From a virus, in IMG/VR virus record IMGVR_UViG_3300021378_000206, positions 1-20,601 of that record: 20,601 nucleotides of DNA, one strand, 5' to 3'. Shown here piece by piece: positions 5,000 to 9,286 of this stretch. Below the pieces are notes generated by a model that searched no databases, was not told the origin of the DNA, and worked only from the letters and a program-made list of their open reading frames with translations. Numbering within the stretch: the stretch's first letter is position 1; each line of letters opens with the position of its first letter. Made by a program: the position numbers and the translations under genes.

Positions 5000-5038
5000 A
5001 ATTTTTCTCCTGTGTATATAGCGTTATATTGCGTAGTA

Positions 5039-5647
5039 TTAAATACTAAAACGATCTTTGACAATTGCCGCGAATCGTTCTTCGTTATAATCGAGAAAGG
5101 GTTTATACTTTCGCGATTTGTTTATTATATCAAAAGATACGTGTTTGTCAACTACTTTTTCTTGCCAGTATGAAAATATATTCGCACTGTGAGCAAGAAT
5201 AGTAAATGTTTCTAAACTAATCTTCCTTTGTAATAACAAAGTCATAAGCAACGGATGCTGCCCATCTCTTGATATAAAGTTTTGCTTGTATTCATCATTA
5301 AGATGAGCAAGCTCGGATTTAAAGATATAACCTAATGATTCTATCTTCTTCCTCCAATTCGTATGTCTGGCCTCGCCTTCGCTATCAAGCAAATCGCGTA
5401 CCCAGCATGATTTATTTATTAAAATATTACTCAAAATTAACCCTTCAACGTCATCTTTTTTCGATAATTTCGCGAAAGAATATGCATCGTTTCTGGATAT
5501 AAACGTGTCAAAGTTTGCTCTGACTTTACCGTTATATTTAAAGTAATCGTAATTGTCTGCTGTAAAATGTTTTCTTAGTGCAAGGAACTTAACGTATGCA
5601 CCAAACGAATCATCATTCGCAATAGTCTGTGATATCTTTTGACTCAT
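5039..5647 (-). CDS. 59: Helicase loader gp59
   Basis: Loads the gp41 helicase onto gp32-coated forks and D-loops. The 202-aa length fits T4 gp59 (217 aa). Shared features with T4 gp59 include an early motif for a helical domain (Y-x-K/L-F-L-A-L-R-K-H-F, then YDYFKYNGKVR against T4 YDVIKYNWCMR), a basic R-x-D-x-Y-x-F-x-K-L-S segment (RNDAYSFAKLSKK), and a C-terminal helical domain with a QRKISLETFTIL segment corresponding to T4 QSNIISFETFILL. The start at 5647 lies within gp33 (35-nt overlap), the same gp33-gp59 coupling as in T4. Assignment rests on these motifs plus position directly upstream of gp32. Confidence 0.9.
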   Translation of the reverse strand: MSQKISQTIANDDSFGAYVKFLALRKHFTADNYDYFKYNGKVRANFDTFISRNDAYSFAKLSKKDDVEGLILSNILINKSCWVRDLLDSEGEARHTNWRKKIESLGYIFKSELAHLNDEYKQNFISRDGQHPLLMTLLLQRKISLETFTILAHSANIFSYWQEKVVDKHVSFDIINKSRKYKPFLDYNEERFAAIVKDRFSI

Positions 5648-5894
5648 CTTCTCTTTTCACCATTCTCAAGTCAACTGCTTCCGTTCGGATCTTTTCTTTC
5701 AACACCGAACTCTTCTTTACTATCTGAGCAATTGTTTCAATCTCAATGCCATTCTTTTCGGAATAGTCAACGAGCGCATCAATATAAGGTACTCCTCGAG
5801 AGATATGTCTACTAATCTCATGATGTATTTTATCAGGCGTTAGTGCTACTACTGCCATTTCATTGGTTCCATCTGTTGTTTTCTTTTTTGACAT
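5613..5894 (-). CDS. 33: Late transcription co-activator gp33
   Basis: In T4, gp33 binds the RNA polymerase beta flap and the gp45 clamp so that late promoters fire on replicating DNA. This 93-aa protein shows the same helical pattern as T4 gp33: a block with Y-x-x-A-x-x-x-x-x-E-x-N-x-I (YIDALVDYSEKNGIEIE here, YLEATTAFLEENSIPET in T4), then a block ending in E-K-I-x-(T/S)-E-A-(V/I)-D. The C-terminus is ITDYCE instead of the hydrophobic LDFLL clamp-binding end of T4. The ATG at 5894 is only about 4 nt from the predicted start of the nearest promoter; an internal Met at codon 13 (5858) is the alternative start. Gene order 33-59-32 supports the call. Confidence 0.85.
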   Translation of the reverse strand: MSKKKTTDGTNEMAVVALTPDKIHHEISRHISRGVPYIDALVDYSEKNGIEIETIAQIVKKSSVLKEKIRTEAVDLRMVKREDESKDITDYCE

Positions 5895-5904
5895 GTATAC
5901 CTAT

Positions 5905-5933
5905 ATTATAATCTAATTGACACCGTATGTCAA
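5905..5933 (-). promoter_or_regulatory. Sigma70-type early promoter P1 upstream of gp33
   Basis: The minus strand has TTGACA (5928-5933), a 17-bp spacer and TATAAT (5905-5910): a perfect consensus, preceded by CTA. Predicted transcription start is near 5898, which would give a nearly leaderless gp33 message. Confidence 0.85.
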
Positions 5934-5959
5934 TAGTTATTTTAGTTTATTTAGAAACT

Positions 5960-5990
5960 CGGCCAAGCGGGCTATAAGCCGACCTGACCG
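5960..5990 (-). other. Compact 5' hairpin in the leader downstream of promoter P2
   Basis: The RNA from promoter P2 would start near 5988 with CGGTC pairing to GGCCG (outer 5 bp) around a symmetric 5x5 internal loop and an inner GGCU-UAU-AGCC hairpin. It is much more GC-rich than its surroundings. A 5' stem-loop could protect the message from degradation or be a binding site; no known RNA family is recognised. Confidence 0.5.
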
Positions 5991-5994
5991 ATAT

Positions 5995-6023
5995 ATTATA
6001 CCACAGTTCCTTTGTCTTGTCAA
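5995..6023 (-). promoter_or_regulatory. Sigma70-type early promoter P2 upstream of gp33
   Basis: Minus strand TTGACA (6018-6023), 17-bp spacer, TATAAT (5995-6000), preceded by CTA. The transcript would run through the hairpin at 5960-5990 and promoter P1 into gp33-gp59-gp32. Confidence 0.85.
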
Positions 6024-6032
6024 TAGTTATTT

Positions 6033-6176
6033 TTAATAACTTGAACTAAAGGCTATGATAATGAAGGGAATGGCTATTGGGAATGTAAGTTGAAAAGTCA
6101 TATTTGCCATATCGCAAAATAGGCATACTTTTTTATTTTCTTTAAGTTGGTCGAAGGTCGCGTTAATTGTTTTCAT
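6033..6176 (-). CDS. 47-aa membrane mini-protein in the control region
   Basis: An ATG at 6176 opens a 47-codon frame. The N-terminal half is hydrophilic and carries a CLFC motif (Cys18, Cys21); residues about 29-46 form one hydrophobic segment (QLTFPIAIPFIIIAF), so a single-pass inner-membrane peptide is likely. It overlaps the 15-aa ORF (6163-6210) by 14 nt in another frame, and GGAGGG sits just before its ATG, so translation is probably coupled. It is the first sizeable gene on the transcript from promoter P3 and would be an immediate-early product. I recognise no family. Small early membrane proteins in T4-like phages often act against the host or against superinfection, but nothing here proves that. 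Confidence 0.55.
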   Translation of the reverse strand: MKTINATFDQLKENKKVCLFCDMANMTFQLTFPIAIPFIIIAFSSSY

Positions 6177-6210
6177 TACCCTCCATCTCCACGCATACTA
6201 ATGCTATCAT
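6163..6210 (-). CDS. 15-codon leader ORF
   Basis: The ATG at 6210 has the better ribosome site of the two mini-ORFs: AGGAG with 7-nt spacing, about 31 nt after the predicted start of promoter P3. The product would be 15 residues ending EGNENN. It ends inside the 47-aa ORF, so it may be a leader peptide that feeds ribosomes to that ORF. It is too short for homology to say more. Confidence 0.4.
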   Translation of the reverse strand: MIALVCVEMEGNENN

Positions 6211-6247
6211 TGTGTTTCTCCTAGGTCGGTTTGTTTCTACAGGTTCT

Positions 6248-6276
6248 ATTATAAACTAATTGATGGTTTATGTCAA
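6248..6276 (-). promoter_or_regulatory. Sigma70-type early promoter P3
   Basis: Minus strand TTGACA (6271-6276), 17-bp spacer, TATAAT (6248-6253), preceded by CTA. It shares with P1 the block CAATTAG(A/T)TTATAATA, so the two look like duplicated copies. It serves the mini-ORFs and probably the gp33 block. Confidence 0.85.
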
Positions 6277-6286
6277 TAGTTTTACG

Positions 6287-6348
6287 ATCGTATAGGAGAT
6301 TTTTTTCAGTTTCAATTTGATACTAGAGGTAACACCATCCTATACGAT
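6287..6348. repeat. Perfect 11-bp inverted repeat flanking a 40-nt spacer
   Basis: ATCGTATAGGA at 6287-6297 is exactly reverse-complementary to TCCTATACGAT at 6338-6348. It lies between the end of the bilin reductase gene (6441) and promoter P3. It may act as a transcript-end structure, an operator pair, or a processing site. The loop is long for a terminator, although the minus-strand RNA carries A-rich and T-rich tracts inside it. The remaining bases 6349-6440 are AT-rich and hold nothing I can name. Confidence 0.6.
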
Positions 6349-6440
6349 TCTATATATACAAACTTGAAGAGATATTGTAATAAATATGTAATAAATATCC
6401 AGTATATTTAGTAATAGATTATATTACATTTCGTTATATG

Positions 6441-7148
6441 TTAAACTTCCTCAAAGAGAACATTTTCTACATACTGATTCTTTCTTTCTTCCGATATTCC
6501 CATCGCTAAAATTGAACTATGAAGCATTCTATTTAGCTTTTGTTTTTCACAATACTTATTTTGCCTTTCGAGAGTATTAATCCATCTCTTAGTGTATTGA
6601 GGATTGCCCATCTCCATTGTATAAAATCTTGAAAGTTCCAAAGCCATGTTAACGAGTTGCTCTGTTTCTTCGCCTGTGCGAATTGATCCTGCACCTATAA
6701 TGTTTTCTGAAAATATCTCTAATGCCCAGTCTGGCATTACTCTTTCTTTTGTCCAAGTAAACTTTTCAGTAGCAGTTTTAAACTTAATCATATATGGATG
6801 ATGATCATTATGACCAGGATCAGTTGGAGAGTAGTCACAAAAGCAACCACTAATCTTTTTAGGATTCGCAACAATATCTAAACCGAAGATTGGTAAATCA
6901 ATATGTTCTTGTGGAAATATATTGATATGCATTAGCCACAATTTATTTTTACCAACAGGTTCAATTGTTTTTAAATGAGCTTTACGAATTATTGATGATT
7001 CCCAAAAGTAATCTTGCCAACCTTCAAGGTCAGCCGTATGTTTAGGATTCTCGACTCTTGTCATAGAGTCGTCAAATTCGTTAATTAAAGTAGCTGATAA
7101 CTTTCTTAATTGGTCAAAGAGTGGACTATCAACTATCACCGTCTTCAC
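6441..7148 (-). CDS. pcyX: Ferredoxin-dependent bilin reductase, PcyA-related (probable PcyX)
   Basis: Reduces biliverdin IXalpha with electrons from ferredoxin. At 235 aa it matches the family (PcyA about 250, PebS 233). Motifs: RKAHLK (55-60), LMHINIFP (72-79), LPIFGLDIV (85-93), CDYSPT (104-109) and EIFSENI (144-150); all align with Synechocystis PcyA. Of the PcyA active-site residues, His74 (here H58), His88 (H74) and Asp105 (D91) are kept, Asn219 aligns with N206, but Glu76 is Lys60 and Asp220 appears to be Arg207. Cyanophage PebS lacks the second His, so this protein sits nearer PcyA. PcyX from uncultured oceanic phages is PcyA-like yet makes phycoerythrobilin; loss of Glu76, which PcyA needs for exovinyl reduction, fits that. 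It overlaps the heme oxygenase gene by 20 nt. Family certain, product inferred. Confidence 0.85.
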   Translation of the reverse strand: MKTVIVDSPLFDQLRKLSATLINEFDDSMTRVENPKHTADLEGWQDYFWESSIIRKAHLKTIEPVGKNKLWLMHINIFPQEHIDLPIFGLDIVANPKKISGCFCDYSPTDPGHNDHHPYMIKFKTATEKFTWTKERVMPDWALEIFSENIIGAGSIRTGEETEQLVNMALELSRFYTMEMGNPQYTKRWINTLERQNKYCEKQKLNRMLHSSILAMGISEERKNQYVENVLFEEV

Positions 7149-7755
7149 CCCAAGGATTCATTTGTCTAGACATAACTGAACCTTGTGAGTCGTATTCTGC
7201 TGTATTGTTTTGATAGTTATCTATGAGATCATGAAATAATCTTTCTGCGTATTCAAAACATATCTTTGCTTCGTCGGCCATATCGTCATGCAGTAATTCT
7301 CTAACACCTTGTATTAGTTCTCTACGATTTTCAAATTCATACATCTGGCCTGAACCAGGAACACCTTTCTTAATGATTTGGCCACCATGAGCATCTCCAA
7401 AGTGTCTTACATATAAATGAGCAAGTAAAGCATCGTTATCATCGTCTTCTATTAATGTTTCAATATGCTTACCGTATTCAACAGTTGATTGAAAATGATC
7501 TTCGATTTCTTCAAGATCAAATAGATTTTCTAATTCTTGAAGGTCTTCTTCAATTTGAGTAGATCTAAAAATTGGTTCAAGTTCCATTGGAATTTCAACT
7601 GCATTCTCTAGGACCATGTAATTTTGTAATTGTGCGTGTAAATATTCTTGATACAGTCTTGGACTGATACCACCGCCTAATAACATATCTGCGAACTCGG
7701 TTCTTTCTGCGTTATCGTGGTGGGCTCTTGTTAATTCTTTTAGATTGTTTGACAT
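7129..7755 (-). CDS. ho1: Heme oxygenase (biliverdin-forming)
   Basis: Opens heme to biliverdin IXalpha, Fe2+ and CO using ferredoxin electrons and supplies the substrate for the overlapping bilin reductase. The 208-aa length fits soluble heme oxygenases. The N-terminal LKELTRAHHDNAE aligns with human HO-1 LKEATKEVHTQAE, making H13 the proximal heme ligand. The signature LLAHLYVRHFGDAHGGQ at 110-126 carries the distal-helix glycines (G120, G124, G125), with Ala-His in place of the usual Leu-Ser. The C-terminal tail after about residue 185 is extra and polar. Leader of about 40 nt with AGAGGTG before the ATG; the late promoter at 7803-7810 drives it. The reductase starts inside it, so the pair is one translational unit. 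Assignment firm. Confidence 0.93.
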   Translation of the reverse strand: MSNNLKELTRAHHDNAERTEFADMLLGGGISPRLYQEYLHAQLQNYMVLENAVEIPMELEPIFRSTQIEEDLQELENLFDLEEIEDHFQSTVEYGKHIETLIEDDDNDALLAHLYVRHFGDAHGGQIIKKGVPGSGQMYEFENRRELIQGVRELLHDDMADEAKICFEYAERLFHDLIDNYQNNTAEYDSQGSVMSRQMNPWGEDGDS

Positions 7756-7802
7756 TTTCTTTCACCTCTGTTTTTAATAATAAAGTCTTTGTTATCTGCA
7801 AC

Positions 7803-7814
7803 TATTTATAAATA
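7803..7814. promoter_or_regulatory. Palindromic, bidirectional T4-type late promoter
   Basis: TATTTATAAATA is a perfect 12-bp palindrome that contains TATAAATA on the plus strand (7807-7814) and on the minus strand (7803-7810). It lies midway between the divergent heme oxygenase ATG (7755) and lipase-like ATG (7855). Leaders would be about 40 nt each way. No sigma70 -35/-10 pair is visible in this 99-bp gap, so both operons appear to be late genes. Confidence 0.75.
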
Positions 7815-7854
7815 ATAACTGAACACAATTGTATATATCGCAGTAGGAGCGCTT

Positions 7855-8601
7855 ATGAACAAAAAAGTACAATTTTGTGATGTAAAAGGTGAGGCTGAAA
7901 AGAAAGCCGAAATGGCAAAGATTGCCTATGAAGATGGAAAGGAAGCAAAGCCCTTCTTCAAAAATCTAGGTTATACAGGTCATAAATTTATTGACCATGA
8001 CGGCGCACAAGCTCATTGTGTATGGAACAAAGAAGAATTTGTTTTATGTTGCCGTGGTACTGAACCAACCGAACTCAACGATCTTAAAGCTGATCTCAAC
8101 ATTTGGCCTGATAAAGCTCAGGTTGGTGGTTGGGTACACAATGGATTCCAAAACGAAATAGATGATATCTGGGATGATATTATTAAAGTATTAGTTAAGC
8201 ATGGAGAAAAAAGAATCAGCATATGTGGTCATTCATTAGGTGGAGCAATGGCAACAATTGCTGCTTCAAGATTACTTGAATATAAACCCGTTCTATATAC
8301 TTTTGGATCACCAAGAGTTGGTAATGCTGCGTTTGTTAAAGAATGCGCTGACCTAGAACATTATCGTTTTGTAAATAACAATGATTTAGTCACTGTCATA
8401 CCACCTTGGTTTATGGGTTACCGACATCACGGCCAAGTTATGTATTTTAACTACAACGGTATTATTAAGAACCTTGCTTGGTGGAGAAAGTTAAAAGATA
8501 AACTACGAGGTATTGCTACTTCGTGGATCAATTTAAAACCTTTTGACGGCCTTTCTGACCACTCAATGGATAACTATACAAAATATACTAAGGATAACTA
8601 A
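7855..8601 (+). CDS. Class 3 lipase-like alpha/beta hydrolase
   Basis: A 248-aa serine hydrolase with the lipase-3 architecture. The nucleophile elbow is GHSLGG (S127 nucleophile); the preceding block VLCCRGTEP (63-71) corresponds to the oxyanion/RGT motif of class 3 lipases, VHNGF (94-98) is also typical, and the catalytic Asp is probably D177 in NNNDLVTVIPP, with H236 (LSDHSMDNY) the likely His; spacings of 50 and 59 residues fit known lipases. There is no signal peptide, so it should act in the cytoplasm or be released at lysis. The start has a good SD (AGGAG). It opens a plus-strand operon of six tightly packed genes driven by the palindromic late promoter. The substrate (host phospholipid, neutral lipid, storage polyester) cannot be told from sequence. 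Confidence 0.88.
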   Translation: MNKKVQFCDVKGEAEKKAEMAKIAYEDGKEAKPFFKNLGYTGHKFIDHDGAQAHCVWNKEEFVLCCRGTEPTELNDLKADLNIWPDKAQVGGWVHNGFQNEIDDIWDDIIKVLVKHGEKRISICGHSLGGAMATIAASRLLEYKPVLYTFGSPRVGNAAFVKECADLEHYRFVNNNDLVTVIPPWFMGYRHHGQVMYFNYNGIIKNLAWWRKLKDKLRGIATSWINLKPFDGLSDHSMDNYTKYTKDN

Positions 8602-8972
8602 TGGACATTTTGGAGAGACTGACAGACGATACTCTATGGATTTATACAGCAATCCTTGGCTCAATTACAGGTGCTGCATTCTTATTTTGGTTTAAAGATA
8701 CAAAGATGGCTTTATGGGGTGTTGGTAAATTTGATGCTTTCTTAGAGTATTTGGCTATAAGATGGGGTTGGACTTGGTTAGAATCAGATCCCTTTGCTTG
8801 GAGAAAAAAGTATCCACATATTACAAATAAGATCGATGAACTTGAAGATAGAATTCAAGATTTAGAAATTGATACACATCCTCCTGTTGCTCCTGGCGGA
8901 ACAACTGAACTTAAATCACTTATCGATGATATCAACGTAAGACTTGATAAAATAGAAAAGAAAAGAAAGTAA
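8601..8972 (+). CDS. Membrane-anchored coiled-coil protein of unknown function
   Basis: A 123-aa protein with one strong transmembrane helix near residues 12-30 (LWIYTAILGSITGAAFLFWF), a Trp-rich amphipathic stretch (LAIRWGWTWLESDPFAW), and a C-terminal half with heptad patterning (NKIDELEDRIQDLEI and IDDINVRLDKIEKKRK) separated by a Pro/Gly-rich hinge. Its ATG overlaps the lipase stop by one base (TAATG), so the two are co-translated. In the lysis context one could imagine a spanin-like or lipase-partner role, but there is no lipobox or signal and I do not recognise a family. Confidence 0.8.
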   Translation: MDILERLTDDTLWIYTAILGSITGAAFLFWFKDTKMALWGVGKFDAFLEYLAIRWGWTWLESDPFAWRKKYPHITNKIDELEDRIQDLEIDTHPPVAPGGTTELKSLIDDINVRLDKIEKKRK

Positions 8973-9286
8973 TGGAACTTACCGATGCAGCAATATCTAA
9001 GGCGGTTGAAAGAACGGCAGGATCGCAACCTAGCAATATTAGGTTGGGTGTCACTGCTGGTGGGTGTGTTGGGTTTGAGTATATTATTGAATATGCTCGT
9101 GAAATTAGTAACGATGATACTGTAACTGATTACGGAAAGTTTAAAATAGTTATGGATAAATTGTCCGAACCGTATTTTAAGGATGCAAAGTTGGACTGGG
9201 TAAAAGAAGGATTGAACGAATCATTTAGAATTATCAATCCAAACGAAACCAATTCTTGCGGTTGTGGTGAATCAATAGGATTTTAA
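8972..9286 (+). CDS. A-type iron-sulfur cluster carrier (IscA/HesB-like)
   Basis: A 104-aa protein with the A-type carrier layout: GVTAGGCVGFEYIIEY at 26-41 (Cys32), a middle region with FKIVMDKLSEPYFKDAKLDWV, and a C-terminal CGCGES (Cys96, Cys98). Three Cys in the pattern C-x63-C-x-C are the cluster ligands in IscA, SufA and HesB. The family transfers Fe-S clusters or iron to apoproteins. The ATG overlaps the previous stop (TAATG). Similar genes occur in other marine T4-like phages. Here it could supply cluster to host ferredoxin, the electron donor of the bilin enzymes transcribed in the opposite direction from the same promoter; that link is my inference. Confidence 0.9.
   Translation: MELTDAAISKAVERTAGSQPSNIRLGVTAGGCVGFEYIIEYAREISNDDTVTDYGKFKIVMDKLSEPYFKDAKLDWVKEGLNESFRIINPNETNSCGCGESIGF

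Follow-up and report, generated by a model that had tools for sequence, protein, structure and literature searches.

Genomic context of the mini-gene

The locus lies in a 20.6 kb virus record, the whole stretch of DNA that was analyzed and that we refer to as the window, in which T4-type gp32, gp59 and gp33 were identified with Pfam and PHROGs. Genes for a bilin reductase and a haem oxygenase, recognized with the same two resources, adjoin these three. An ORF near the haem oxygenase and bilin reductase genes (8972–9286, plus strand) may encode an IscA/HesB-type Fe-S protein, which it seems to resemble. The window haem oxygenase is 35.5% identical to that of the pelagiphage Mosig, and a paper on tetrapyrrole genes describes marine phage copies of haem oxygenase and bilin reductase as resembling those of Mosig (PMC11480375). 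A DNA search of phage records with window positions 5000–8000 returned no match.

Between the bilin reductase and gp33, and upstream of gp59 and gp32, is a mini-ORF of 47 residues, whose start is overlapped by a shorter leader ORF. The features of this region, from high to low coordinates, are as follows.

6441–7148: bilin reductase
6248–6276, minus: P3, perfect sigma70-type promoter (TTGACA-17-TATAAT) before the leader, read from the sequence
6218–6222, minus: AGGAG ribosome-binding site of the leader, 7 nt from the leader ATG, read from the sequence
6163–6210, minus: 15-codon leader ORF MIALVCVEMEGNENN, with its stop 14 nt inside the mini-ORF
6179–6190, minus: purine-rich GGAGATGGAGGG within the leader, a possible ribosome-binding site of the mini-ORF, read from the sequence
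6033–6176, minus: mini-ORF of 47 residues, a CxxC followed by a single hydrophobic segment with two prolines (from relatives and pN/pS)
6114–6125, minus: CxxC motif, residues 18–21 (alignments A1 and A3)
6045–6101, minus: predicted membrane segment, residues 26–44 (hydropathy and AlphaFold2 helix)
5995–6023, minus: P2, perfect promoter right after the mini-ORF stop, read from the sequence
5960–5990, minus: stem-loop immediately downstream of P2, PeSL-like, a possible terminator (folding and covariation)
5905–5933, minus: P1, perfect promoter ending 10 bases 5' of the gp33 ATG, read from the sequence
5613–5894: gp33

An earlier, sequence-only reading of this DNA had described a perfect promoter, a well-spaced AGGAG and a 15-codon ORF overlapping a membrane-type mini-protein with a CxxC motif, just upstream of the replication block. 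The positions listed above bear out each of these descriptions, with the membrane character of the protein resting on its sequence.

The mini-ORF is a conserved gene

Judged by comparison with its relatives, the 47-residue ORF is a real, conserved gene. Relatives were gathered first through the neighbouring bilin reductase, and all 21 bilin-reductase relatives contain the mini-ORF. Alignment-based scans afterwards extended the family to 88 viral contigs other than the window (80 kept of 87 from one scan and eight from another, an earlier set of 55 loci being included). The encoded proteins are 38–61 residues long, except in L163, where the frame extends to 136. The CxxC motif is found at all 89 loci (the 88 relatives and the window), and both cysteines and the two prolines are invariant in alignments A1 (14 sequences) and A3 (17 sequences). 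The usual pattern is KVCxFC...FPIALPFFII; the most distant members, L166 and L167, are without its prolines in the usual arrangement.

Purifying selection on the mini-ORF is supported by the pattern of substitutions. The 55 loci and the window, minus L040 (whose start was not assigned), were collapsed to 35 distinct sequences; pN was lower than pS in each of the 586 pairs with pS above 0.05, at a median ratio of 0.45, and the remaining nine of 595 pairs had a pS of 0.05 or less and were dropped.

The best 19-residue stretch of the window protein covers residues 26–44, with a mean hydropathy of 1.79. For the comparison of hydropathy and charge, as for that of the leader peptides below, 60 of the 80 kept loci were used, near-duplicates being left out. 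All 42 distinct proteins have one hydrophobic stretch (best 19-residue mean 1.65–2.51), which is long enough to span a membrane, and in all 42 lysine and arginine are more numerous before this stretch than after it, which points to an N-in topology. These properties suggest that the product is an N-in, single-pass membrane peptide. The AlphaFold2 model of the mini-protein, of moderate confidence by pLDDT (71) and with a pTM of 0.34, consists of two helices, one of them spanning residues 15–45.

Database searches

None of the 14 mini-proteins of A1 has a Pfam match with an E-value of 1 or less, and the mini-protein has no match among PDB sequences. NCBIfam and PADLOC each gave a single weak match of one member, neither of them credible, while PHROGs gave a borderline match (E 0.008) of four of the 14 members to an unnamed family. 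Foldseek returned no match of the mini-protein model to viral models. A tblastn search of isolated phages, with the relatives from L003, L026 and L070 as queries in place of the window's own protein, gave a single row at E 6 and nothing credible. A degenerate pattern scan for the CxxC stretch of the window gave no match and, in one scan of cellular genomes, none of 106 pattern matches was confirmed as the mini-protein. Among the matches listed from open-licence literature, we found no prior description of the 47-residue peptide. With relatives in 88 viral contigs besides the window, the mini-gene represents an additional family of phage micro-proteins, for which Pfam, NCBIfam, PADLOC and PDB sequences offer no credible match, the borderline unnamed PHROG aside. 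ORFs of this kind are short enough for ordinary gene calling to miss.

The upstream promoter P3

The window contains eight perfect promoters (spacers of 16–18), against 0.05 expected from dinucleotide shuffles. Late-type promoters of the form TATAAATA show no enrichment (five, with 2.7 expected). T4 early promoters have been described as excellent sigma70 matches (PMC2988021). When the 250 nt upstream of the mini-ORF were checked in the 88 other contigs, a counterpart of P3 was found only in L117, L145 and L146, at −97 (3/88); five of the 88 loci hold less than 250 nt of upstream sequence, and a leader or promoter could be missed there. The term "immediate-early", which the sequence-only reading had applied to the ORF pair, therefore describes the variant in the window, shared with a minority of relatives, rather than the family.

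An exact palindrome with a variable centre, GTTACCnnnGGTAAC, lies 52–60 nt upstream of the mini-ORF at 27 of the 55 loci (e.g. L036), where it closely follows a TATATAAT-like stretch and could be an operator or a 5' hairpin. The copy in the window, near 6320–6333, is degenerate.

T4 Imm is an early inner-membrane protein that blocks the entry of later phage DNA. By analogy, the mini-protein could be a superinfection-exclusion or host-takeover protein that acts at the inner membrane to keep later phage DNA out of the cell or to block a host function. What it shares with Imm and other small phage membrane proteins is a small size, a membrane-type sequence and, in the window, an early-type promoter of perfect consensus; the absence of a confirmed cellular copy among the 106 candidates is also in keeping with such a role. 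However, the mini-protein carries a CxxC before its hydrophobic segment, and it is likened here to Imm as generally described. The lack of a credible Pfam, NCBIfam or PADLOC match, with a PHROGs match that is borderline and unnamed, and the restriction of the perfect promoter to three of 88 relatives argue against this role, which we consider unlikely.

The leader ORF and its overlap with the mini-gene

An ORF of 15–21 codons that is led by its own Shine-Dalgarno (SD) sequence and ends 14–20 nt inside the mini-ORF is present in seven of the 88 contigs as well as in the window. The two ORFs have the same relative frame at every such locus, with the leader ending at +14, +17 or +20. Given their relatedness, these loci represent about three lineages. 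The leader peptides are MIALVCVEMEGNENN in the window, MTAVCNMVGVNENFI in L117, MTAVRKMVEVNENSN in L145 and L146, MKNLIIACSRMEQEGHEQFYI in L154, and MKNLIIANHRMEQEGHEQPSV in L126–L128. Thus, the amino-acid sequence of the leader is not conserved, though the arrangement recurs; the leaders of L117 and L145 differ by five nonsynonymous and no synonymous codon changes. A degenerate pattern scan for the leader peptide gave no match. A six-frame search of the loci with the window leader, run before L117 was included, returned only the self-match, and two of three shuffled leaders outscored the best other match. That the leader might be private to the window was rejected on finding its counterpart in L117. 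The check suggested in the earlier reading, a search of relatives for the same ORFs between the bilin and gp33 loci, has a positive outcome for the mini-ORF, which is conserved, and for the overlap, which recurs, but not for the amino-acid sequence of the leader.

We estimate that its length alone makes a 15-codon ORF unremarkable. A short overlapping leader is found before six of 50 distinct mini-ORFs (8/89 loci, window included), compared with one of 157 distinct control ORFs, which were drawn from the same loci and have at least 100 residues and an SD of their own. In L163 and L164 the short leader is replaced by an ORF of 83 residues that makes the same overlap with the mini-ORF:

L163:3775–4023 and L164:2034–2282: 83-residue ORF, signal-peptide-like by eye (MKNFIAAVC...AEQEGNEQLLP)

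Pfam gave no credible match for this ORF, whose last 48 residues are also present in the cut locus L165. In the eight loci of the L086 group, a 66-residue ORF stops 4 nt inside the mini-ORF, in a different frame.

A leader of 8–25 codons is absent from 81 of the 88 relatives, ten of which have a longer overlapping ORF. Many of the leaderless relatives have AAGAAGGAG immediately 5' of the mini-ORF ATG, and the mini-gene therefore does not need a leader. A sequence similar to GGAGATGGAGGG of the window, GGAGCAGGAGGG, precedes the mini-ORF ATG in L154, L162, L163 and L164. Folding of the leader region revealed no structure beyond chance (z 0.69) and so gives no sign that the start of the mini-ORF is unmasked by translation of the leader.

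The leader could be without function, a promoter and ribosome-binding site having landed before the mini-gene with 15 codons as an incidental spacer. The peptides are unconserved even between L117 and L145, and most relatives lack a short leader, both of which agree with this explanation; we regard it as a reasonable one that falls short of being probable. It sits less well with the recurrence of the overlap, the relative frame and the end position in about three lineages, and with the 83-residue ORF that overlaps the mini-ORF in the same manner against a background of 1/157.

Translationally coupled leader ORFs form a general class, with which the leader shares its own SD, a short ORF and a stop inside the next gene. 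It differs in that its peptide is not conserved and that an 83-residue ORF takes its place in L163 and L164. As far as sequence comparison goes, the recurring overlap fits translational coupling without a conserved peptide, and the leader probably helps ribosomes to reach the mini-gene.

It is conceivable, if rather doubtful, that the leaders are the shrunken remains of a true upstream gene, kept so that ribosomes reach the mini-gene. The 21-codon leaders of L126 and L154 resemble both ends of the 83-residue ORF (MKNLIIA...MEQEGHEQ), and MIALVCVEMEGNENN of the window is shorter still; the likeness extends over a few residues at either end, and at the 3' end these are constrained in part by the ribosome-binding site and the overlap. 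Change may also have gone in the opposite direction, from a leader ancestor that grew into a gene. If erosion did take place, what survives of the gene would be its start site and its overlapping stop, which serve the membrane gene downstream. Loci lacking a leader and loci with one of 15, 21 or 83 codons form a ready-made series among the relatives for probing what a coupled upstream ORF does.

Promoters and stem-loop downstream of the mini-gene

At least one perfect promoter lies between the mini-ORF and gp33 in all 42 gp33-linked relatives. P1 ends so close to the gp33 ATG that the gp33 mRNA may be nearly leaderless. P2 runs straight into the stem-loop in 19 distinct aligned sequences (the window and 18 from the 55 loci, each with at least two downstream promoters), and the P2 transcript might therefore be only ∼45 nt long. 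The stem-loop of the window has a folding z of −4.0. In the alignment, from which the structure itself was also derived, 99% of cells are paired, compared with 21–53% in slid controls, and five of the 11 pairs have changed on both sides, a number reached in three of 500 shuffles. Seven T follow the stem in L126 and L154. The T-run of the window is poor, and the stem-loop at 5960–5990 is not among the entries of the terminator listing for the window. Rfam gave one sub-threshold chance match only.

Judged from sequence, the combination of P2 and the stem-loop resembles the PeSL (promoter early stem loop) cassettes of T4-like phages (Arbiol 2010 and Comeau 2014, as cited in PMC4503421). In both, a perfect promoter adjoins a stem-loop between genes of a T4-like phage; the comparison follows the account in the citing paper, and the order of elements here places the stem-loop downstream of P2. 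Among 20 chosen relatives, the best match to the window shifts by segment, from L001 for the bilin gene (654/703) to L117 for P2 with the stem-loop and again to L001 for the mini-ORF, a pattern compatible with exchange at PeSL-like sites. We also considered whether the cassette as a whole came from an L117-like phage. The stem-loop would agree with such a transfer, but the mini-ORF DNA is nearest to L001, and we rejected it. The covarying promoter/stem-loop element could be traced in transcript data.

Settings of the mini-gene in relatives

In 39 of the 88 loci, the mini-gene has both neighbours, a bilin reductase no more than 1.5 kb upstream and gp33 no more than 1 kb downstream. Three loci have only gp33 (these are cut upstream) and one only the bilin reductase (cut downstream). 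At the remaining 45 loci neither neighbour is present at these distances, although gp33, gp59 or gp32 is a few kb away in a few of them; the mini-gene thus occurs in different settings. In L029 the mini-ORF is flanked on both sides by NifU-like genes within 0.7 kb.

These neighbours bear on whether the peptide could be a redox or metal accessory, its CxxC acting at the membrane as a ligand of zinc or of an iron-sulfur cluster, in the service of neighbouring haem/bilin or Fe-S genes. The 39 loci between bilin reductase and gp33 and the NifU-like neighbours in L029 would be consistent with this, as would the invariance of both cysteines in A1 and A3. However, the 45 contigs that have neither bilin reductase nor gp33 close by, and the absence of a common neighbour among the four such loci inspected, make this function improbable in our view.

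A lysis function, as a small holin or antiholin, agrees with the size of the peptide and its one hydrophobic segment, and with the second small membrane-type ORF that adjoins the mini-gene in L126 and L026. In the window, however, the mini-gene has replication genes around it and an early-type promoter in front of it, and no endolysin was found among the eight window proteins scanned with Pfam. We consider a lysis role very unlikely.

Proposed expression unit and function of its product

On balance, we lean towards a reading in which P3, the coupled leader, the membrane mini-gene and the promoter/stem-loop element form a small expression unit of a T4-like marine phage with a helix-binding product. 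The perfect consensus of P3 suggests that host polymerase would transcribe the unit early in infection. Ribosomes would load at the AGGAG of the leader, terminate 14 nt into the mini-gene and start again from the mini-gene ATG. The leader would then act as a translation ramp whose amino-acid sequence is irrelevant, as the recurring overlap and unconserved peptide suggest.

The product, from its hydropathy and charge distribution, would be a peptide that crosses the inner membrane once, its N-terminus and CxxC lying on the cytoplasmic face. Most likely, it would bind a host inner-membrane protein helix-to-helix through the conserved PIAxPFxI segment, while the CxxC may give a redox- or metal-dependent dimer.

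Other small ORFs adjoining the mini-gene

The mini-gene is connected with the DUF1127 (YjiS) family through L063, where its end is overlapped by the ORF of a DUF1127 protein that carries a CAFCDIV stretch close to the N-terminus; none of the 14 A1 members matches DUF1127 (PF06568). YjiS has been reported to associate with the inner membrane (PMC11707872). The same contig contains three adjacent small ORFs (L063:2786–3326), each with a CxxC stretch near its start, the third being the DUF1127 protein. By eye, a second small membrane-type ORF (MKKPTDSKKEDRIAIIALSVILILS...) starts at the mini-ORF stop in L126 (from position 1312 onward), and another such ORF adjoins the mini-ORF in L026.
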